From: Candidatus Uhrbacteria bacterium
Lineage (GTDB): Bacteria > Patescibacteriota > Patescibacteriia > UBA9934
NCBI GenBank assembly: GCA_943357745.1
Contig: CALRGN010000005.1
Location: 1 to 32,931, forward strand
DNA: 32,931 nucleotides
Direction of reading: 5' to 3'
In this document: in pieces, positions 7,684-18,597 of the stretch
Layout: each line of letters starts with the position of its first letter
Numbering within the stretch: position 1 is the first letter of the stretch
The notes under the pieces: model-generated
Database searches by the model: none
What the model was told of the DNA's origin: nothing
What the model saw: only the letters and a program-made list of their open reading frames with translations
Position numbers and translations under genes: made by a program

Positions 7684-7692
7684 ATTACCCCA

Positions 7693-7721
7693 AGTTTAAA
7701 TGAAGTTCCGAGATTTGTCTA
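7693..7721 (-). promoter_or_regulatory. Candidate valS operon promoter
   Basis: On the minus strand, TAGACA (7721-7716) and TAAACT (7698-7693) are separated by 17 bp. The predicted start is about 3 nt upstream of the valS ATG at 7683, so the transcript would be nearly leaderless. Seen by eye; no score computed. Confidence 0.6.
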
Positions 7722-7725
7722 TGAT

Positions 7726-7731
7726 TATAAT
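7726..7731 (+). promoter_or_regulatory. Possible -10 box for the sigma-like gene
   Basis: A perfect TATAAT lies about 50 nt upstream of the ATG at 7781, but no good -35 hexamer is seen at 16-18 bp spacing. It would leave a leader of about 43 nt carrying a GGAG Shine-Dalgarno (7772-7775). It lies back-to-back with the valS promoter. Confidence 0.4.
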
Positions 7732-7780
7732 CTGATTTGCATTTCTTTAGAGATAGCAGTAATCTTAAAGTGGAGCAAAA

Positions 7781-8764
7781 ATGACCAAAACTCAAGGCTA
7801 CCCCGCTTGGTGTTTGTCCCCCAGAGACCGTGTGAATGTTGATCTGATCCGATTGATCAGATCCAGCAAAGCGTCAGATCCTACGGCCAATCATGACATT
7901 GAAACTTTTTTATTGTTCAATCGCGGATTGATCAATAAAGCCGTCTCTCAATTTGCTTGGCCTCGTAACGAATCTGACCGAGAAGATTTAATCCAGGATG
8001 CCCAGTTGATTATGCTGGAGATGCTTCCTAGGTATGATGAGGAAAGAGGCGCCGTTTCCACCTTTTTCTTTTTATGGTTAAGAGCTAAACTTCCTAAAAC
8101 TGACAGCAATCGCCTGCGTTTTGGGATCTCTTTGCCAAGAAATCTGGCTGAAAAAAGAAGCGCAGTTGAATGGGTGGCGAAAGAAATATATCTCCGCACC
8201 GGTAACTACCCCAATCGGATTGAACTGGCACAGTCTCTCTTCCAGCGCGGTTTTGACGGAACACCGGCAAGCATCGCTAAATTACTGGAAGACTTACAGC
8301 TCGTTCACATCCATCCGGTCAGCATTCTGCCGGAAAATAATTCCGAGAACGGTCGTTCAGATCACTGGGAATTGGAGATCAATACCAACCACCTCGGCGA
8401 GAATTGGTCTGACCCAGTGTATTCTGGAGATCAAGTAGCCAACCACCAGCGGTACTTGGAATTACTGCAACAGTTGAATGATTATCGGCCGGATATGAGG
8501 AACAGCAGAACAATGAGTTTACTCATTGCTCGCTTCCGGAGCAATCCGCCTCGGTCGCTGTTGATCAAGTCTAATGTTGAACTGGCTAAAGAGCTTGGTA
8601 TCACCAGAGAAGCGATCCGGCAGAACCTCGCTAATCTTGTGAAACGGCTTCAACCAACACTAGATATAGCCGAGTTGTCCCGATTGGCCCGCTTGGAATA
8701 TTACCGGCTCAATGATCAATTGGGCGTACCAGTTCTTGATAGTCATCGTCGTCCCGACCAGTGA
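7781..8764 (+). CDS. Divergent sigma-70 family RNA polymerase sigma factor
   Basis: In this 327-residue protein, residues about 41-105 resemble sigma region 2 (NRGLINKAVSQF ... DREDLIQDAQLIMLEM ... FDE-like YDEERGAVSTFFFLWLRAKL). Residues about 115-170 resemble region 3 (GISLPRNLAEKR, then NYPNRIELAQSL). Residues about 262-292 form a region-4-like helix-turn-helix (NVELAKELGITREAIRQNLANL). The aromatic -10-melting residues of region 2.3 are only partly recognisable and region 4 is atypical, so it is not the primary housekeeping sigma. The start is supported by GGAG five bases before the ATG. It is divergent from valS, monocistronic and followed by a GC-rich hairpin. Other possibility: a sigma-like regulator that does not initiate transcription. 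Confidence 0.72.
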   Translation: MTKTQGYPAWCLSPRDRVNVDLIRLIRSSKASDPTANHDIETFLLFNRGLINKAVSQFAWPRNESDREDLIQDAQLIMLEMLPRYDEERGAVSTFFFLWLRAKLPKTDSNRLRFGISLPRNLAEKRSAVEWVAKEIYLRTGNYPNRIELAQSLFQRGFDGTPASIAKLLEDLQLVHIHPVSILPENNSENGRSDHWELEINTNHLGENWSDPVYSGDQVANHQRYLELLQQLNDYRPDMRNSRTMSLLIARFRSNPPRSLLIKSNVELAKELGITREAIRQNLANLVKRLQPTLDIAELSRLARLEYYRLNDQLGVPVLDSHRRPDQ

Positions 8765-9116: not shown

Positions 9117-10274
9117 CTATGTGTCCTTGGTGGTCGTATCAAAGTCCGCCTCGGTCATCCCGAGACGCAGCTCGAAAAACGACAGCATAGTCTTGACATC
9201 GTTCAAGGAATCGCGTCCAAAGTTCCTGATGGTGAGCAAATCGCGTTCCGTTTTGAAGACGAGCTGGTCAACGGTCTTAATACCCGCGGAATCCAAGCAG
9301 GTTTCCGTTCTCACCCTGAGTTCGCATGCATAGATACTGCGGCTGAGGACTTCGATGTCAAAAAGAGTCTTCCCCGCCCCGATACTAGGATGCGAGATCT
9401 CTTCCCGCACCTGGTGATCGCGCCTCATCTGCATCGTCTCGATCTCGTTCACCTCGCGAGCGATTGCGGCGATCTCGATTTCCCAGAGCTCACCGTGCCA
9501 CTTGGGAGGCGACCAGTTGCGAGGCAGAAGAGCACCGGCCCACAGACGCGAGCCGACCTCATGAAGAATGGCCTTGATCCTCTCGAAGTCACCCGTTGAG
9601 CGCATGCCTTCGGGGCAGTGTTGGAGACGACCGCACTTGAAGACTTCGCCGACGTAGTGGATGTCGTCCTGGTGCAAGCGACGGGCGAGCCCGCGGTAGG
9701 CACACTGCTCGTGGGGCGAGCGCAGTCGACGACCCATGTTCGGGATCTCCACCTCCCAATCCGGCGCCGCCGGCGTGGGATGACGCTCAAGGATGAGCGT
9801 GTTGATCTCGGCCAAGAAAGTCGGATCGCTCCAGTACGACGGCTGCCACCCCAACCCGATCGGGTCGATGTGGGAATGGAGACCGAATCGGTCTGCCAGC
9901 ACCTTCATCATCCTCCGTTCACTGGTCTCGCGGCCATGAGCTCCCCGGGGATTAAAGTACACGTAGTAGAGCTCGCCCACGTAGCGGATGCGCCGATAGG
10001 CAAGGTAGGACCGATCTTTGCGGGAGAAGGGTACATCACACACCTCAAGATCGAATACCGCCATGACGTCCTTGACCGGCGAGCTCTTGGATGCCTGAAT
10101 GAAAGCGGCGAATTTTCCCTCCTTGAAGGCCTGCATGACCTCGAGGAGCACCGTCACGTCGCTCAAGGAGCGTTCGTTGGTGAGAATGTGCCCCATTGCC
10201 GAACCCGTGAGGGCGGAGAGACGCTTCAATGCCTCGAGCTTCTGACGATCGTTCATGCCAGTTTCCGTGGACAT
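9117..10274 (-). CDS. Stand-alone protein with three RNA polymerase alpha-CTD-like modules
   Basis: The last ~70 residues (303-373) closely resemble the RNA polymerase alpha C-terminal domain: GIKTVDQLVFKTERDLLTI, RNFGRDSLNDVK and the terminal LRLGM. Two weaker modules show the same helix-hairpin-helix pattern, around residues 83-132 (YRRIRYVGELYYV) and 185-245 (LARRLHQDDIHYVGEVF). There is no alpha N-terminal assembly domain, so it is not rpoA. Alpha-CTD domains bind DNA minor grooves and activators; this may be a DNA-binding transcription modulator (inference). The gene is conspicuously GC-rich (about 60% in the rows I counted) against AT-richer neighbours, and has a consensus promoter, a strong GGAGGT SD and its own terminator: an autonomous, probably transferred cassette. 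Long antisense ORFs over it are GC-driven shadows. Confidence 0.75.
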   Translation of the reverse strand: MSTETGMNDRQKLEALKRLSALTGSAMGHILTNERSLSDVTVLLEVMQAFKEGKFAAFIQASKSSPVKDVMAVFDLEVCDVPFSRKDRSYLAYRRIRYVGELYYVYFNPRGAHGRETSERRMMKVLADRFGLHSHIDPIGLGWQPSYWSDPTFLAEINTLILERHPTPAAPDWEVEIPNMGRRLRSPHEQCAYRGLARRLHQDDIHYVGEVFKCGRLQHCPEGMRSTGDFERIKAILHEVGSRLWAGALLPRNWSPPKWHGELWEIEIAAIAREVNEIETMQMRRDHQVREEISHPSIGAGKTLFDIEVLSRSIYACELRVRTETCLDSAGIKTVDQLVFKTERDLLTIRNFGRDSLNDVKTMLSFFELRLGMTEADFDTTTKDT

Positions 10275-10335: not shown

Positions 10336-10364
10336 ATACTACCTCTTTTAGCTCATTTTGTCAA
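10336..10364 (-). promoter_or_regulatory. Consensus promoter of the alpha-CTD gene
   Basis: On the minus strand, TTGACA (10364-10359), a 17-bp spacer and TAGTAT (10341-10336). The leader is about 55 nt and contains a CTCACC-ACAA-GGTGGG hairpin and the TTGAAC palindrome. Confidence 0.85.
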
Positions 10365-10370
10365 TCTCCT

Positions 10371-10397
10371 GGCTCACATGCCAATTCAAAGCAGTAA
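10371..10397 (-). repeat. 27-bp upstream element, copy 1
   Basis: Minus-strand sequence TTACTGCTTTGAATTGG followed by CATGTGAGCC. It ends 6 bp before the TTGACA of the alpha-CTD gene and matches copy 3 at 24 of 27 positions. Confidence 0.8.
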
Positions 10398-10471
10398 TGA
10401 TCCCCCGTTTTAATAATTGGCCAAGCAAACCACTCAACTATCAAACTCCAAATCAGGTGTTAAAAAAGGAA

Positions 10472-10498
10472 TTACTGGTTTGAAATGGAATGTAAGTG
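10472..10498 (+). repeat. 27-bp upstream element, copy 2
   Basis: TTACTGGTTTGAAATGG followed by AATGTAAGTG. It ends 6 bp before TTGACG of the DHH gene promoter and matches copy 3 at 22 of 27 positions. It is inverted relative to copy 1 across a ~75-bp gap in which I see no gene. Confidence 0.8.
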
Positions 10499-10504
10499 AT
10501 CGCC

Positions 10505-10534
10505 TTGACGCCTTGATGCAATCCAAGCTACTCT
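10505..10534 (+). promoter_or_regulatory. Candidate promoter of the DHH-like gene
   Basis: TTGACG and TACTCT are separated by 18 bp. The predicted start near 10541 leaves a short pyrimidine-rich leader without an SD. Confidence 0.55.
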
Positions 10535-10565
10535 ACCCCCTTATTTTTCTTCTCCCCCCACCCGC

Positions 10566-11717
10566 ATGATCTCCCCCCATGAACAACTAGCCAAGGCCAT
10601 ACTTAAAGCCGAACGGCCGCTGTTAATACTTTCGGCTGAGCCTACGGTGGACGGATACGCCGCCATGATCGCTATCAATGAAGTGGCCAAGCTATTGCAA
10701 AAGAATTTAACGGTGGTGAGTACTGGTGGTAATGCTCCTAGTCAGCTAGCTTTTCTTTCTCCTCCGGAGATCAAGAGCGATCTAACTAATTTGCGTTCGC
10801 TCACGGTGCAGGTGAATACAAAAAAAGCGAAAGTGGAGGAACTTTCTTATAGTGTTGAAGGCGAGGTAATTAATATTCACCTTCTCCCAAAACAAGGGTT
10901 CTGGACCACGGATGATATTAAAATTTTAAGCACCGCCTATCGGTACGACCTAATCTTGGCGCTAGGACTGGGATCGCTCTCGGGAGCGGGCATGATTTTT
11001 CAGCGGTATCAGGATTTTTTCTATGCAACGGCGATTATTAATCTTGACTTTGGCATGATGAGTGAAGAATTTGGTCAAATTAATTTGGTGGACCAAACGG
11101 CTACTTCACTCTGTGAAACGGTGGCCTATGCCCTGCCGGCACTGGGAGAAGAAATGTTAACGCCGGCCGTGGCCACCGCCCTACTGACTGGGATTATTTC
11201 TCAAACCAATAGTTTTAAGGACGAGCGGGTAACCACTAAGACCTTGAATCTAGTAGCTAAATTAATGGCCGCCGGCGCTAAACGAGAAGAAATTAATCAA
11301 AAATTGTATCGCACCAAATCGGTAGAGACTTTAAAACTATGGGGTAAGGCATTGGGAAATCTTAGAAGTGAACCGGAGTTGCGGTTAGTTTGGACCATGC
11401 TAACCCGGCAAGACTTTTTGCAAACCGGCGCCAATGAAGAGGCGTTGCAGGATATTGTTCAAGAGCTTCTGCGTAATTCTCCGGAGGCGCAGGTGGTGGT
11501 GATTTTTGAAGAACGAGGACTGGATTTGATTAGCATTCATATCCATGCCGAACGTCCGTTTGATGCCCTGGCGCTGGGGGCACCATTTAAGGCGGCCGGT
11601 AGCCGACAGAAAGCCACCTTGCTTGTACCGGAAGAGAACCTGCAAGGAGCGGAAAAAGTAGTAATGGATCATTTGAAAAAAACTTTACGGGAAGGGGTAC
11701 GCGGATTCTCTTCATAG
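10566..11717 (+). CDS. DHH-family (NrnA/MgpA-like) protein with lost catalytic motifs
   Basis: The 383-residue length and fold pattern match bacterial DHH/DHHA1 phosphoesterases, which degrade nanoRNA or cyclic dinucleotides. The landmarks are recognisable but altered. The first motif (HxNPDxDxxGS) reads SAEPTVDGYAA. The DHH motif region reads INLDFGMMSEEFGQINLVD, keeping the FG.iNLVD tail but not DHH. The DTxxF segment reads QTNSF. The DHHA1-like C-terminal domain contains ERGLDLISIHIHAERPFDA. Most metal ligands are therefore absent, so it is probably a non-catalytic binding protein (inference). It is followed after 29 nt by the CCA-enzyme-like gene, which has its own promoter. Confidence 0.7.
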   Translation: MISPHEQLAKAILKAERPLLILSAEPTVDGYAAMIAINEVAKLLQKNLTVVSTGGNAPSQLAFLSPPEIKSDLTNLRSLTVQVNTKKAKVEELSYSVEGEVINIHLLPKQGFWTTDDIKILSTAYRYDLILALGLGSLSGAGMIFQRYQDFFYATAIINLDFGMMSEEFGQINLVDQTATSLCETVAYALPALGEEMLTPAVATALLTGIISQTNSFKDERVTTKTLNLVAKLMAAGAKREEINQKLYRTKSVETLKLWGKALGNLRSEPELRLVWTMLTRQDFLQTGANEEALQDIVQELLRNSPEAQVVVIFEERGLDLISIHIHAERPFDALALGAPFKAAGSRQKATLLVPEENLQGAEKVVMDHLKKTLREGVRGFSS

Positions 11718-11722
11718 TATCC

Positions 11723-11740
11723 TCACGATCGTGATAAAAT
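11723..11740 (+). promoter_or_regulatory. Leaderless promoter with palindrome upstream of the CCA-like gene
   Basis: The extended -10 TGATAAAAT ends 6 nt before the ATG at 11747, so transcription would start at the ATG itself. The 12-bp perfect palindrome TCACGATCGTGA (11723-11734) overlaps the TG of the extended -10 and could be an operator. Confidence 0.5.
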
Positions 11741-11746
11741 AGGGGC

Positions 11747-13045
11747 ATGAGCCCCTTATTTTATTCCAGCCATATCTCCCCCTCCACCCGCGTGGGTGCT
11801 GTTTTAGCACAAGATAAGAGAAGTGGTTTGGCTTTTCAATTGTTGTCCCACTTCCCTCAGGCGCAAGTGAGCCTGCTTGGCGAGGGAGTGGCACAAGCAG
11901 TACAAGGCAAACAGCCGGCACGGTTGCAATTTGGAGTGTCAGGCTTGGCGTCGGAACGATTGGATAAGTATTTGCAGGCGCAAGGGCATGGTCAAACAAT
12001 TGAGTTTGTGACACTTAATCCAAATAATTATCGCCATCACAATCATCGTCAAGCTGTTTTTGATTATTGTCACGCTCAACCGTTTAGTTTAGATGCAATC
12101 ATCTACTCAATTAACCGCCATCAAATAGTTGACCCGTTTGGAGGACTGGCCGATCTAGCCCAGCAAAGATTGCGACCGGTGGGTAAATTTGATCAACTAA
12201 TAAACACCAACCCCGCGCTCAATCTACGCGGACTCAAATTGGCGGGTCAATATGGCCTCTCACCGTCTGTGAAGATTAGAGATAGCTGGGATGATTCTTG
12301 GGAAGCATTACAAGCGGTGAGTGCTGGTGCCGATGGTTTTGGCGAATATAGGTATCCACGGAGGATGGTGGGCGAGGGATTTGCTCAAGTTTTGGCGACT
12401 GGCAAGGAAGGGATGAATTGGTGGCAGGATAGTTTAGCTAGCAAAACTCTGACCCCGGAGCTTGGTTTACTAGAACAGACTCACTCCGCTAAACATGAAC
12501 ATGGACTAGCCGAGGGTTTAGAATCGCTCATAAAACTGCCGGTGCAAATGGCGGAGCTAGCTTTGAGCGCGCTGTTGTTACCTTTAGAAAATTTGGCGGT
12601 ACCGACCTTAAAAAAATTGATCGCCAAACTGCATCTATTTCATAGTCGGAGTTTAAATCACTCAAAAGCGGAATGGCTCACTCATCACGGTTATCATCTG
12701 CTTCACCTTCCGGCTCATTTAGGTGAACCGTCGTATGGACAGCTGGCGCAACATGAACATAGTGTTGATTTGGGCCGCCTTTTAAAGGCCCAGCATCAAG
12801 TGATGTCGTTTGACCATAAGCGACTTGAACGACTGGAACGGTTGCATGAGGCGATCACTCAGTGTGATTCGGTTGAATCAGATATGAATCAAGAACGGTT
12901 GATTAAAGGGCGGGATTTGATGAGCGTGGGATTTCTCCCGGGATCACATGTAAGATTTATTTTACAAAAAGTCTTTGACGCCCAGCGGTGTGGCTTGATT
13001 TCTTCCAAAGAAGAGGCGATCCGTTTGGCACTGGGGATGATTTAG
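11747..13045 (+). CDS. CCA-adding enzyme/poly(A) polymerase-like protein lacking catalytic head motif
   Basis: In this 432-residue protein, residues about 114-165 match the family neck region: AIIYSINRHQIVDPFGGLADL, then RLRPVG and LNLRGLKLAGQYG, cf. INAL...DPFGGL.DL...R.VG...LR..RFAA.LG. The C-terminus matches the tail region (RLIKGRDLMSVGFLPGSHV, AQRCGLISSKEEAIRLAL). The head, however, has LLGEGVAQAVQGKQPARLQFG where active enzymes have GGxVRDxLLG...DxD, so the carboxylates that bind catalytic metal are missing. The RRDFTINA motif reads QPFSLDAI. It also has a His-rich central part. It is probably a pseudoenzyme that may still bind tRNA. An active CCA enzyme must be elsewhere, since tRNA-Leu at 25444 does not encode CCA. 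Confidence 0.68.
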   Translation: MSPLFYSSHISPSTRVGAVLAQDKRSGLAFQLLSHFPQAQVSLLGEGVAQAVQGKQPARLQFGVSGLASERLDKYLQAQGHGQTIEFVTLNPNNYRHHNHRQAVFDYCHAQPFSLDAIIYSINRHQIVDPFGGLADLAQQRLRPVGKFDQLINTNPALNLRGLKLAGQYGLSPSVKIRDSWDDSWEALQAVSAGADGFGEYRYPRRMVGEGFAQVLATGKEGMNWWQDSLASKTLTPELGLLEQTHSAKHEHGLAEGLESLIKLPVQMAELALSALLLPLENLAVPTLKKLIAKLHLFHSRSLNHSKAEWLTHHGYHLLHLPAHLGEPSYGQLAQHEHSVDLGRLLKAQHQVMSFDHKRLERLERLHEAITQCDSVESDMNQERLIKGRDLMSVGFLPGSHVRFILQKVFDAQRCGLISSKEEAIRLALGMI

Positions 13046-13106
13046 TAAATGGTTTCTCTATATGTACCAATGTACCAAACTCGCACCTACTTCCAAAACA
13101 AATAAG

Positions 13107-13146
13107 GAGGGATTTGGGAAAGAATTTTCCATTTTATCCTCTTTTT
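13107..13146 (+). terminator. Probable Rho-independent terminator after the CCA-like gene
   Basis: GAGGGAT ... GGGAAA-gaa-TTTTCC ... ATCCTC followed by TTTTT forms a two-part stem with a small internal loop. It separates the DHH/CCA-like pair from the restriction operon. Confidence 0.65.
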
Positions 13147-13161
13147 GTTATAGGAGATTGC

Positions 13162-13188
13162 TTACTGCTTTGAATTGGAATCTAAGCC
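13162..13188 (+). repeat. 27-bp upstream element, copy 3
   Basis: TTACTGCTTTGAATTGG followed by AATCTAAGCC, about 70 bp before the mod start codon. Unlike the other copies, no convincing -35 follows at 6 bp; a CATAAT -10-like hexamer is at 13213-13218. Confidence 0.75.
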
Positions 13189-13256
13189 CTTTCGTTATGG
13201 GGAAAAATAAGGCATAATTCTTAACAATAGCTGTCTAGGCTGAATATTGAAATTCT

Positions 13257-15122
13257 ATGAAAACATCGAAATTGGATGGAGATTCCACGAACCAACAAGA
13301 AGCCCTTCTTGCGTTGCTGAGACAACACGCCCCCGAGGTCTTTAGTGAAAACAAGATCGACGTAAAGCAACTCCGCGCCACTTTGGGCGAGGAAGTTTTA
13401 GCTGATGCAGAGCGTTATGGTTTGAACTGGGCTGGCAAGATGGATTGTTTCCGAACAATTCAGGAGACCACAACGAACACCCTCAAGCCTGTCCGTGATG
13501 AGTCGGTAAACTTCGACAGTACCGAGAATCTTTTTATCGAAGGCGATAACCTAGAAGTTTTGAGGGTTCTTCAGAAGAGCTACTACGGCAAGGTAAAAAT
13601 GATTTACATCGACCCTCCCTACAACACGGGAAACGATTTTATTTACAACGACAAGTTTTCCCGAAACAAGCGGGAGTATCTCGAAGAGGTTGGAGCGATT
13701 GATAAAGAAGGCAACGTCGTGAATGCCGGGTTATACACGCAGAACACGAAAGATAGCGGACACTTCCATTCGGATTGGCTCAACATGATGTATCCGCGTT
13801 TGTTTTTGGCGAAGAATCTCCTTCGACAGGATGGAGTGATGTTTATTAGTATAGATGATAATGAAGTATACAATTTACGAACAGTCGTGAATGAGATTTT
13901 TGGAGAGGAGAATGTAGAAGAAATGATTTGGAGAAAAAGCGGAATTGGTCGTGATGGAAAAATGAAAAACACGACCACATTCAGAAATGATCATGAGTAT
14001 GTATTAGTTTGCCATAAATCTATTAAAGATTTGAACAAATCTTTTGAGATACCTAACTGGCAGAATCAATACGGAAATCCAGATTCTGATCCAAGAGGAA
14101 GTTATAAGGCCGGAAGCATTTCAAGAAAAGATGAGGCATCAAATCCACTGCATAAATTTTACTACACAGTAATATCTCCTGTCGGAAAAGAATTTACAAG
14201 GCAATTTGAGATTAGTAAGGATGATTTCCTTAGACTCGATGAGGATAAGAGAATTTATTGGGGTAAGAATAAAGATGCTGTACCAGCAGTCAAAATTTTT
14301 ACTGAAGAAAAACGAGAAGTCACCACGTCCTCGTTAATTGAGGATAAACTTTGCACCACAACAATTGGATCCAAGGAGCTCGACGAACTACTTAATATCG
14401 AAGGTTTAGGCATAACGGCTAGACCAAAGCCAGTTACGTTGATAAAAAAACTTACTCAAATTGGCGATGATAAAGATGGTATCGTGATAGATTTTTTCGC
14501 TGGTTCCGGAACGACTGCTCATGCCGTGATGCAACTCAACGCTGAGGACGGCGGCCACAGAAAATGGATCTGTATTCAGCTGCCAGAAAAATGTAAGCCA
14601 GAGACTGAAGCCGCAAAGGCTGGATTTGTTACGATTGCGGATATCGCAAAAGAACGTATTCGACGTGCGGGCAAAAAGATTAAGGAAGAAAATCCAGAAA
14701 AAACTTTTGATGTAGGATTTAAGCTATTCAAGATTGATGAGAGCAATTTCAAGATTTGGAATACCCACGTGACGAGCGTCGAACAATTGGAGCAACAGAT
14801 GATTGAGATGTTCGATAACGTCCAACCCGGTGCCACGAAAGAGGCGATGATGTACGAGTTGATTCTGAAGAGTGGCAAAGAGCTAAATGTTGCAATCGAA
14901 GAAAAGACTGCCGGGGGAGAAAAGTATTTTAGAGTAAATGACGGCTCTTTGGTGATTTGTCTTGCTGACAAGTTGAGCAAGGAGTTGTTTACAGGAATCC
15001 TCACCGAGAAACCAAAGAAGATTATCGTCCTCGACAAGTCTTTTGGGAATGACGATCAACTCAAGACGAATCTACTCCTCCAAGCTGAAGGTGCGGGAGT
15101 TGATGAGGTACGCGTGATTTAA
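13257..15122 (+). CDS. Type III restriction-modification methyltransferase subunit (Mod)
   Basis: This 621-residue N6-adenine DNA methyltransferase also supplies target recognition for the restriction complex. The N-terminus has the Mod-like ATLGEEVLADAERYGLNWAGK. Motif IV is IYIDPPYNTGNDF (DPPY at 119-122) and the AdoMet-binding motif I is DFFAGSGTTAHAV (about 412-424); this IV-before-I order is the beta class typical of Mod. The intervening stretch (about 220-400) is the target recognition domain; parts of its DNA are more AT-rich than the flanks (one row about 23% GC against about 53% near the 5' end), suggesting recombined specificity. It is the first gene of a four-gene operon; the next gene starts 2 nt after its stop. 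No SD is seen. Confidence 0.95.
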   Translation: MKTSKLDGDSTNQQEALLALLRQHAPEVFSENKIDVKQLRATLGEEVLADAERYGLNWAGKMDCFRTIQETTTNTLKPVRDESVNFDSTENLFIEGDNLEVLRVLQKSYYGKVKMIYIDPPYNTGNDFIYNDKFSRNKREYLEEVGAIDKEGNVVNAGLYTQNTKDSGHFHSDWLNMMYPRLFLAKNLLRQDGVMFISIDDNEVYNLRTVVNEIFGEENVEEMIWRKSGIGRDGKMKNTTTFRNDHEYVLVCHKSIKDLNKSFEIPNWQNQYGNPDSDPRGSYKAGSISRKDEASNPLHKFYYTVISPVGKEFTRQFEISKDDFLRLDEDKRIYWGKNKDAVPAVKIFTEEKREVTTSSLIEDKLCTTTIGSKELDELLNIEGLGITARPKPVTLIKKLTQIGDDKDGIVIDFFAGSGTTAHAVMQLNAEDGGHRKWICIQLPEKCKPETEAAKAGFVTIADIAKERIRRAGKKIKEENPEKTFDVGFKLFKIDESNFKIWNTHVTSVEQLEQQMIEMFDNVQPGATKEAMMYELILKSGKELNVAIEEKTAGGEKYFRVNDGSLVICLADKLSKELFTGILTEKPKKIIVLDKSFGNDDQLKTNLLLQAEGAGVDEVRVI

Positions 15123-15124
15123 GT

Positions 15125-15931
15125 ATGGCTATCCCAGAAGAAATTACAAGAACGATTAATAAATCCGACAGTGGATTTTTAATCGAGACTTCGAGCTTCT
15201 TGGAGTCTCAGGGCTGGGTTGTCACGATCAGTCCGTACTATCTTGATTCTTTTACGGGAAAGAGCCGAGAGATTGATTTGCTTGCTACGAAGACTGTCGA
15301 TGTGCTCTATGGTAGACGAATCGGTTCCGCGACTTACAATCTTATTATCGAATGTAAGGATATAAGGAATGGTGATCCAATGAATAACAATGCTGTTTTT
15401 TGGTTCAAGGATTCTGCTAAGTATGAAAAAGAGCTATCAGATTTTGTACAAAGGCATTTTTCAGACGATCCAAAAAATTGGGATCAGTTGAAAAACCTCC
15501 ATTATTTTGAAAACCCCGACACCGCCTTCTTGTTCGAGAGCGCTGACAATGGTGGTAAAGACCGTGAGAACGGTTCTGTTTTTAAGGCGCTTACTCAGGC
15601 GCTTCACTCGTTGATTTATTTTCGAGCAGAAGGTTATGGAAGCGTAAATACTACGGGCTACAACGTTCGGCACTACTTGCCTGTTGTTGTTTATCGAGAT
15701 ATTTCAAACGCTGTATATAAAGTGAACGACGATCGAATCGAGCAGATTAAAGAGAATTTTCTACTCGCAATGAATTACTCTTACAGTCACCCTAAGAAAG
15801 GAACGGCCATATCAGAATTCTTCCTTGTCGATGTGGTGAGACATGAGCTGCTCCAAGCGTTTTTAGACAAAATTTCGAGCGACCTGAAGAATTTACAGTC
15901 GTATATTCAGGATAAGGACGATCAAGTATGA
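15125..15931 (+). CDS. PD-(D/E)XK nuclease-like protein inserted between mod and res
   Basis: I do not recognise a named family for this 268-residue protein. The N-terminal ~80 residues show the restriction-endonuclease-fold pattern: E21 in helix 1 (GFLIETSSFLESQGW), D51 (SREIDLLA) and the E-x-K pair E76/K78 (LIIECKD), with spacing typical of Mrr-like PD-(D/E)XK nucleases. The remainder is not recognisable. It starts 2 nt after mod and overlaps res by 4 nt (ATGA), so it is translated with the restriction complex. Type III systems normally place mod and res next to each other, so this looks like a dedicated accessory. Possible roles are an extra cleavage or nicking subunit, or a fallback nuclease. 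Confidence 0.6.
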   Translation: MAIPEEITRTINKSDSGFLIETSSFLESQGWVVTISPYYLDSFTGKSREIDLLATKTVDVLYGRRIGSATYNLIIECKDIRNGDPMNNNAVFWFKDSAKYEKELSDFVQRHFSDDPKNWDQLKNLHYFENPDTAFLFESADNGGKDRENGSVFKALTQALHSLIYFRAEGYGSVNTTGYNVRHYLPVVVYRDISNAVYKVNDDRIEQIKENFLLAMNYSYSHPKKGTAISEFFLVDVVRHELLQAFLDKISSDLKNLQSYIQDKDDQV

Positions 15932-18597
15932 AATTAAAATTCGAAGCAAATCAGCAGTACCAAATCGATGCCGTAAAATCGGTGGTCGATATTTTTGAGG
16001 GCCAGCCGTTGGAGAGTGGTGATTTTGAGATGATGGTTGCTATACCGGCGGACAGACTTCAAATTGGAAGTGAGATTTTGGTTGGTAACAATCTCGTGTT
16101 GGAGCAGGAAACAATCCTGAAAAACATTCAAACCATCCAGGAACAAAACAAACTCCCCCTCAGCGATAGCGAGTTCAAGGATGGAATGAACTTCTCTACT
16201 GAAATGGAAACGGGTACGGGAAAGACATACGTCTATTTGCGAACCATACACGAACTCAATAAGAAGTACGGGTTCAAGAAGTTCGTAATTGTCGTGCCGA
16301 GTATCGCGATCAAGGAGGGTGTGATGAAAAACCTTGAAGTAACGAAGGAACATTTCGCGTTGCTGTTTGATAATCCGAAGATGGATTTTTACATTTACGA
16401 TTCCAAGAAAAGGGGTCAACTTCGGAATTTTGGTACAACGGATACGCTCCAAGTGCTCGTGATAAACATCGACTCGTTCACCAAGAAAGAAAGCAACATC
16501 ATTTACCAGGATTCAGATGATGGCATTCCGGTTCGCTACATTCAGGGTGTTTGCCCGGTGGTGATTGTTGATGAACCGCAGAACATGGAAACAGACGTGC
16601 GCAAGGTGGCAATCGCGAATTTAAATCCGCTTTGTACACTTCGGTATTCCGCGACGCATAAATATCCGTATCATCTGCTCTACAAACTCGATCCAGTACA
16701 GGCATATGACTTGGGTTTGGTGAAAAAGATTGAAGTCGACTCTGTTTTCTCCGAGGATGCGTACAACGACGCATATATTCGCGTTCTTGAAATCAAAAGC
16801 AAGAAGGCTAATATTACGGCGACCATCGAGATTGATAAAAGCGATGATTATGGCCTCCAGCGCAAGGAGGTGGTGATGAAGCCTGGAGACGACCTGTTTG
16901 ACCTCTCAGGGGAACGTGAGGCTTACAAGGACGGATTCGTGCTGGAATCCATCAGCGTTACGGACCAAACTGTGGGCTTCTCCAACGGAAATACGTTTGC
17001 GTGCGGTCAGAAGGATGAAAAGCTACAGGACGACATCATGAAATATCAGATTAAGAAAACGGTTGAAAATCATTTCGAGAAAGAAAAAAAGCTGAAAGAT
17101 AAGGGCGTGAAGGTGCTCTCCCTGTTTTTTATTGACCGCGTATCAAATTACCGAGAATACGTTGAGGCTGGCTGGGGTAAAGGAAAATTCGCACAATGGT
17201 TTGAAGAGGCATACAAAGAAATGCAGAAGAAGCCGCAGTACCAAGGCGTGCTTGAGCAAGATTGTGGCGACGTTCATGACGGTTATTTTGCACAGGATAA
17301 GAAGTCTGGCTCCTGGAAGGATTCGAGCGATGCAAAAGGAGGAGAAGGTGGAAAAACACAAGACGATGAACGGGCGTACGAGTTAATCATGAAGAACAAG
17401 GAGAAATTGTTAGACGTAAATACGCCACTACGTTTCATCTTCAGTCACTCCGCGCTTCGTGAAGGATGGGACAACCCGAACGTCTTCCAGATTTGTACGC
17501 TCAGTGAAACACAATCCGTCATGAAGAAGCGCCAAGAAATCGGACGCGGTCTTCGCTTGCCAGTGAATCAGGATGGCGAACGAATTTACGATTCGAACAT
17601 CAATGTGCTGACCGTCATTGCCAATGAAAGCTACGAACAGTTTGCGAAAGCCCTCCAGACAGAAATTGAGGAGGACTGCGGTGTTTCGTTTTCTGGTCGT
17701 ATCAAGAGCAAAGAAAAACGTCGGATAGTGAAGCTGAAGAAGGGATATGAACTCGATGAGAACTTTAAAGATTTGTGGAGCCGAATCAAACAGCGCACGC
17801 AGTATCACGTTGAGTACAGTACAAGAGACCTTATCGAAAATGCCTGGCGTGCGTGTTTGAATATCAACGTCTCGAAGCCAAGAATCAGCAACGTTCGCGT
17901 GCGCCTGAACATCAACGAGAAAGGTGTTAATACGGAAATTCGTTCAGTAAGTAGTCAGACGATCAAACAAGAGATTGGACTGGAGGCCATTCCTGACGCG
18001 ATTAACAACATTCAGCGGAAAACTCGGCTGACCAAACCGACGATATTTAAAATTCTCAAGGAATCGGATCATTTGAAAGATATCCTGGTTAATCCTCAGC
18101 AAGTCGTTGACGAGGTGACCATGAAAATCAACGAGACGCTCACTCGTATGGCAGTAGACGGCATCAAGTACGAAAAGATCGCTGGTGGCTTCTGGGAGAT
18201 GCAGCGATTCCAGAATGAAGAGCTGGAAGAGTATCTTGACCGTCTTATCAAGGTTCAGAATCAGCAGAGAACGCTTTACGACCACGTTATTACGGATTCT
18301 GCGGTGGAAGCGACCTTCGCCAAAGACTTGGAATCACGCGAGGATGTGAAGTTTTACTTCAAGCTCCCTCGATGGTTCAAGATCGAAACCCCACTTGGTG
18401 GCTACAATCCGGACTGGGCAATTGTTTTTGAGAATGACAAACGGGTGTACTTCGTTGCGGAAACCAAAAAAGAAGGCGAGATTCGAGAGAGTGAGGAGAT
18501 GAAAATCACCTGTGGTCGTGCACACTTCAAAGTGCTGGACGGTGTGCTATTTGAGCGAGTTGAGAGGCTGGAGGAGATTCAGATAAGTGGCTCTTGA
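15928..18597 (+). CDS. Type III restriction enzyme Res subunit (helicase-nuclease)
   Basis: In this 889-residue superfamily 2 translocase, Walker A is METGTGKT (93-100), motif II is VVIVDEPQ (DEPQ about 215-218) and motif III is SAT (241-243). Motif VI is in QEIGRGLRLPVN. Near the C-terminus PDWAIVFEND ... VAETKKEGE gives the PD-(D/E)XK endonuclease typical of Res (PD about 828, E845, K847). With Mod it hydrolyses ATP and cleaves DNA near unmethylated sites. All key motifs are intact, so the system looks functional. Its start overlaps the previous stop; the HEPN-like gene begins 10 nt after it. Confidence 0.95.
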   Translation: MKLKFEANQQYQIDAVKSVVDIFEGQPLESGDFEMMVAIPADRLQIGSEILVGNNLVLEQETILKNIQTIQEQNKLPLSDSEFKDGMNFSTEMETGTGKTYVYLRTIHELNKKYGFKKFVIVVPSIAIKEGVMKNLEVTKEHFALLFDNPKMDFYIYDSKKRGQLRNFGTTDTLQVLVINIDSFTKKESNIIYQDSDDGIPVRYIQGVCPVVIVDEPQNMETDVRKVAIANLNPLCTLRYSATHKYPYHLLYKLDPVQAYDLGLVKKIEVDSVFSEDAYNDAYIRVLEIKSKKANITATIEIDKSDDYGLQRKEVVMKPGDDLFDLSGEREAYKDGFVLESISVTDQTVGFSNGNTFACGQKDEKLQDDIMKYQIKKTVENHFEKEKKLKDKGVKVLSLFFIDRVSNYREYVEAGWGKGKFAQWFEEAYKEMQKKPQYQGVLEQDCGDVHDGYFAQDKKSGSWKDSSDAKGGEGGKTQDDERAYELIMKNKEKLLDVNTPLRFIFSHSALREGWDNPNVFQICTLSETQSVMKKRQEIGRGLRLPVNQDGERIYDSNINVLTVIANESYEQFAKALQTEIEEDCGVSFSGRIKSKEKRRIVKLKKGYELDENFKDLWSRIKQRTQYHVEYSTRDLIENAWRACLNINVSKPRISNVRVRLNINEKGVNTEIRSVSSQTIKQEIGLEAIPDAINNIQRKTRLTKPTIFKILKESDHLKDILVNPQQVVDEVTMKINETLTRMAVDGIKYEKIAGGFWEMQRFQNEELEEYLDRLIKVQNQQRTLYDHVITDSAVEATFAKDLESREDVKFYFKLPRWFKIETPLGGYNPDWAIVFENDKRVYFVAETKKEGEIRESEEMKITCGRAHFKVLDGVLFERVERLEEIQISGS

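Follow-up and report, generated by a model that had tools for sequence, protein, structure and literature searches.

The window analysed here, a stretch of 32,931 nucleotides from Candidatus Uhrbacteria bacterium, contains three copies of a 27-bp element upstream of a gene for an acquired protein with an alpha-CTD domain, a conserved DHH-family gene and a type III restriction-modification operon. On the basis of the sequence comparisons described below, the element may well be a directional operator serving a small local regulon and recognised by a regulator that was itself acquired, a reading that we hold with evenly balanced confidence. An insertion scar or a functionless local duplication is a serious rival to the operator, and both were weighed against it.

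Identification of the 27-bp Element

Copy 1 (TTACTGCTTTGAATTGGCATGTGAGCC) lies at 10371-10397 on the minus strand, upstream of the alpha-CTD gene, copy 2 (TTACTGGTTTGAAATGGAATGTAAGTG) at 10472-10498 on the plus strand, upstream of the DHH gene, and copy 3 (TTACTGCTTTGAATTGGAATCTAAGCC) at 13162-13188 on the plus strand, 68 bp ahead of the type III mod start codon (ATG). The three copies were thus present exactly where an earlier note on this DNA had placed them, and all of them fit the consensus TTACTGSTTTGAAWTGG-MATSTRAG exactly. Pairwise identities read from the sequences were 24/27 for copies 1 and 3, 22/27 for copies 2 and 3, and 21/27 for copies 1 and 2.

The best pair of 27-mers in the surrounding 4.5-kb region matched at 24/27 positions, to be compared with a maximum of 22/27 in 60 first-order Markov shuffles of the same region, a control that was scored for one pair and not for three copies; the occurrence of three related copies by chance is far less likely than that of a single pair. 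The 17-bp core, searched with up to 3 mismatches, returned 4 matches in the window against 0.49 expected.

All three copies are intergenic and span 2.8 kb, each being oriented toward the next gene downstream, and copies 1 and 2 are inverted relative to each other. The homology among the copies ends at 27 bp, with the exception of a common 9-mer, AGGAGATTG, near copies 1 and 3. This 9-mer occurs at 10362-10370, directly after copy 1 and overlapping its -35 hexamer, and at 13152-13160, 1 nt ahead of copy 3, a placement for which a permuted unit or chance (rough estimate, < 1 in 100) are possible explanations.

Two other origins were considered and rejected. For copies 1 and 2 as the inverted ends of a small transposon, no target duplication was seen, the flanks are unrelated and there is no further copy. 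For a coding remnant, inspection by eye of the open frame shared across copies 1-3 revealed no coding-type substitution pattern.

Position of the Copies Relative to the Promoters

The predicted promoter of the alpha-CTD gene (10336-10364, minus strand) reads TTGACA-17-TAGTAT, with 10/12 matches, and that of the DHH gene (10505-10534, plus strand) reads TTGACG-18-TACTCT. Copy 1 ends 6 nt before TTGACA (10364-10359, minus strand) and copy 2 ends 6 nt before TTGACG (10505-10510, plus strand), the exact spacing of 6 bp already reported for these two sites, and both copies occupy about -42 to -69.

The -35 hexamer of the DHH promoter is conserved among the family orthologs, TTGAC being found upstream of DHH in 17 of the 19 compared (18/20 counting the present genome); one of the two orthologs lacking it has almost no upstream DNA. 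A TAnnnT motif mostly follows 17 bp after TTGAC, the distance being 18 bp in the present genome. The predicted DHH promoter was therefore confirmed independently through family conservation. The columns just upstream of this -35, corresponding to the position of copy 2, are nearly devoid of information in the family comparison, and the element was not seen upstream of DHH in the orthologs compared. Since the -35 is conserved and the upstream columns are uninformative, the DHH promoter is old and the element new.

Downstream of copy 3, no TTGACA-like hexamer was found at a distance of 6 nt, where the sequence reads TTATGG, and the closest promoter-scan match is TTAACA-16-AATATT (13221-13248), 32 nt away. 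The fixed position upstream of a -35 hexamer is thus present for copies 1 and 2 and absent for copy 3.

Gene Context and Origin of the Element

In the relatives, the locus is organised as argS-tyrS-valS on the minus strand, DHH and the 11747 gene on the plus strand, tRNA-Val, the 19579 gene and a pseudouridine synthase gene. The DHH-family gene (10566-11717, plus strand) is conserved, shows weak similarity to NrnA and is ancestrally divergent from valS; the conserved 11747 gene (11747-13045, plus strand), which follows it, is nucleotidyltransferase-like. A first block, consisting of the sigma-like gene, a tRNA-Met and the alpha-CTD gene, interrupts this order between valS and DHH, and a second block, comprising the type III restriction-modification operon and one further gene, lies between the 11747 gene and tRNA-Val. 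Comparison of the gene orders shows that both blocks are lineage-specific insertions. The valS-DHH gap (7684-7780) and the interval from the 11747 gene to tRNA-Val (13046-13256) hold other extra genes in other congeners (L084, L085, L090), and since different genes are held at the same places, these are sites of frequent gene gain.

The restriction operon that had been noted downstream of copy 3 proved to be of type III (13257-18597, plus strand) and contains mod, an unmatched gene at 15125-15931 and res only, with no match to a controller or HTH family. The gene between mod and res codes for a 268-aa protein matching no known family, in which the motifs REIDLLA and IIECKD look nuclease-like.

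Copies 1 and 2 are located at the right, DHH-side edge of the first block, where it meets the conserved DHH promoter, and the left edge of the restriction-modification insertion carries copy 3. This arrangement is what would be expected if the element were an insertion scar or recombination site marking foreign-gene junctions, with no regulatory role, and such an origin would also agree with the uptake of different genes at this locus in several congeners and with the 9-mer abutting copies 1 and 3 on opposite sides. However, the far edges of the two insertions yielded no copy, direct matches between the edges did not exceed 12 bp and were either chance-like or between tRNA genes, the empty sites in the congeners lacked the element sequence, and no recombinase or transposase was recognised among the open reading frames and family matches of the inserted blocks. 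A scar also leaves the common 6-nt spacing of copies 1 and 2 unpredicted, and we consider it a rather unlikely origin. Should it be correct, the element would be an ordinary junction repeat. A search for tRNA-borne att repeats at the insertion edges returned none.

Functionless local copying by template switching or gene conversion, the equal spacing then being due to chance, was judged unlikely. It could explain why only three copies exist within 2.8 kb and why none was seen outside the present genome, and it fits the lineage-specific nature of both insertions and the lack of the common spacing at copy 3. Copying should have carried flanking bases along, but the identity stops at 27 bp; the copies are all intergenic and gene-facing, and the pattern of mismatches suggests retention of the shared core alongside change at the remaining positions.

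Distribution of the Element

The 17-bp core was found without mismatch at 3 places only in the 650-kb assembly. Weaker matches to the core comprised one with 2 mismatches and nine with 3, and those that were checked fell inside open frames and lacked the right half of the element. A genome-wide dispersed repeat, which the earlier note had named as a refuting case, was thus rejected.

The element was absent from 4 congeners, from the 22 other genomes of the family (within about 72 of the order) and from 380 genomes of the phylum. A 25-mer searched with up to 3 mismatches gave no match in the order or phylum genomes, a pattern of 20 fixed bases had no exact match in IMG/VR or GTDB contigs, and the element was likewise not found with mod homologs, in phylum genomes or in viral contigs. 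The second refuting case, no conservation in close relatives, was therefore borne out in a formal sense; however, the genes bearing the copies are lineage-specific, so absence in relatives is also expected for a regulatory site acquired with them. Because the acquired genes are missing there too, the lack of the element in relatives is not decisive among an operator, a scar and a functionless copy.

The Acquired Alpha-CTD and Sigma-like Proteins

The candidate regulator is the acquired alpha-CTD protein (9117-10274, minus strand, 385 aa), whose alpha-CTD domain covers residues 308-364 and whose N-terminal portion of about 300 aa matched no family. Its gene has a GC content of 58% compared with about 46% for the genome region, and represents the sole PF03118 match in the assembly (completeness about 94%). 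In the alignment with the E. coli domain, R265, G296 and S299 have their counterparts, and the positions of the DNA-contact residues N268 and K298 are occupied by T and D respectively. As two of the contact positions are changed, DNA binding by the acquired domain is uncertain. Residues 95-150 and 200-250 approximately have the appearance of an internal duplication (YVGE ... W.P.YW), and these segments may be further alpha-CTD-like modules. A structure model calculated from the single sequence was uninformative (pLDDT 37).

The sigma-70-like protein (7781-8764, plus strand), also acquired, contains region 2 and a weak region 4. It has a 39% paralog on contig C28 and no counterpart in the other 22 genomes of the family; the paralog gene (L083 8589-9638) lies directly after xseA and upstream of an apparent xseB. 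The core match with 2 mismatches on C28 was considered as a possible link to this paralog and rejected, since it falls 1.6 kb off, within the coding sequence of a different gene. Peptide pattern searches of viral contigs returned no close relative of either protein, and the same outcome was obtained for the alpha-CTD protein in GTDB contigs. Three loci from other genomes of the phylum (L053, L054, L055) encode a sigma-70 region 4 joined to an alpha-CTD and separate from RpoA, which suggests joint action of the sigma-like gene and the alpha-CTD gene that neighbour each other here.

The RpoA of the present genome is a protein of 250 aa without the C-terminal domain (L122 1333-2085), its gene being directly followed by rplQ. 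The domain is likewise missing from RpoA in all 22 genomes of the family where a match was obtained, the open frame not exceeding 291 aa and ending after the N-terminal domain. Loss of the alpha-CTD in Parcubacteria has already been published (PMC8321222), and our literature search found no paper on an alpha-CTD supplied by separate proteins. Since the resident polymerase lacks the domain, neither the UP-element nor the class I mechanism in its usual form applies, and since the only alpha-CTD is carried by the acquired protein, any effect of this domain must be exerted in trans. The proposal in the earlier note that the alpha-CTD of RNA polymerase binds at the element had to be abandoned on the same grounds. 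An UP element contacted by that subunit, to which the position of copies 1 and 2 would be suited, is thus barely tenable, copy 1 moreover having 12 G/C of 27 (44% G+C) and no A-tracts; this reading is already refuted for the resident polymerase and could be restored only through the acquired alpha-CTD protein.

The Element as a Possible Local Operator

Taken together, the data are best explained by the local operator. The regulon would have come with the recently acquired genes or grown up around them. At copies 1 and 2, a regulator would bind immediately ahead of the -35 and modulate sigma-70-type initiation at the alpha-CTD and DHH genes, and at copy 3 it would act on the type III restriction-modification operon from another position. 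The sequence data establish the copies and their spacing, the conservation of the DHH promoter, the lack of an alpha-CTD in RpoA and the two insertions; that a protein binds the element, that this binding is regulatory and what the regulator is, we infer. The likeliest reader would be the alpha-CTD protein encoded next to the element, which would act on the promoter of its own gene and might do so together with the sigma-like protein; this is a guess based on neighbourhood. Control of all three units by a single regulator, as raised in the earlier note, is a conjecture, and copy 3 is without the common spacing.

In favour of an operator are the restriction to three gene-facing intergenic copies within 2.8 kb, two of them with the same 6-nt spacing to the -35, the confinement of the homology to the size of a site, and the location of copies 1 and 2 in a divergent region beside a transcription-factor-like gene. 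The lack of a CTD in RpoA points in the same direction, and the stand-alone alpha-CTD/sigma region 4 proteins of the phylum fit a role of alpha-CTD proteins as separate regulators. Against it stand the absence of the element from every relative, and hence of a phylogenetic footprint, the conservation of the DHH promoter in relatives lacking the element, and the lack of the common spacing at copy 3. The alterations at the N268 and K298 equivalents of the acquired domain also argue against it, and so does the finding that other alpha-CTD genes showed no comparable repeats next to them.

A more far-reaching version of the operator would have the acquired alpha-CTD protein restore upstream promoter recognition in trans. 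With the sigma-like protein as partner, it would bind the 27 bp at a constant distance from the -35 and so join the gene that encodes it, a core gene and the restriction operon in one circuit. We regard this version as speculative and quite improbable. If the element is an operator, it would represent a rare defined regulatory site in an ultra-small genome of the Candidate Phyla type, and through it one could test directly whether the domain that RNA polymerase has lost is substituted by stand-alone alpha-CTD proteins.

Comparison with Known Systems

An att recombination site would differ from the present case, in which neither a copy nor an att-like repeat occurs at the other edges of the insertions. 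REP/MITE-type repeats are similarly short, imperfect and intergenic, and the mutual inversion of copies 1 and 2 recalls them; however, only three copies are present here, no target duplication was seen and the arms have no homology. The C-box operators of restriction-modification systems share with copy 3 the presence of a short site ahead of a restriction operon, but no controller was recognised in this operon, the element has no conserved palindrome, and copies of it also stand ahead of genes that are not part of the operon.

The UP element, which consists of A/T-rich tracts between about -38 and -59, resembles the 27-bp element in its place just upstream of the -35, and here an alpha-CTD is encoded next door. 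It differs in that the element is a long specific sequence and not a series of A/T tracts, the polymerase lacks the alpha-CTD, and the domain belongs to an acquired protein. With a class I activator site the element shares, at two genes, a constant distance to the complete sigma-70 promoter that follows; however, class I activators normally contact the alpha-CTD that is absent from RpoA here, copy 3 is off-spacing and the regulator is only putative. The fusions of sigma region 4 with an alpha-CTD (L053, L054, L055) differ from the present locus, where two neighbouring genes are involved and the alpha-CTD protein carries the unmatched N-terminal portion, but they share with it an alpha-CTD placed outside RpoA and combined with sigma-like parts.
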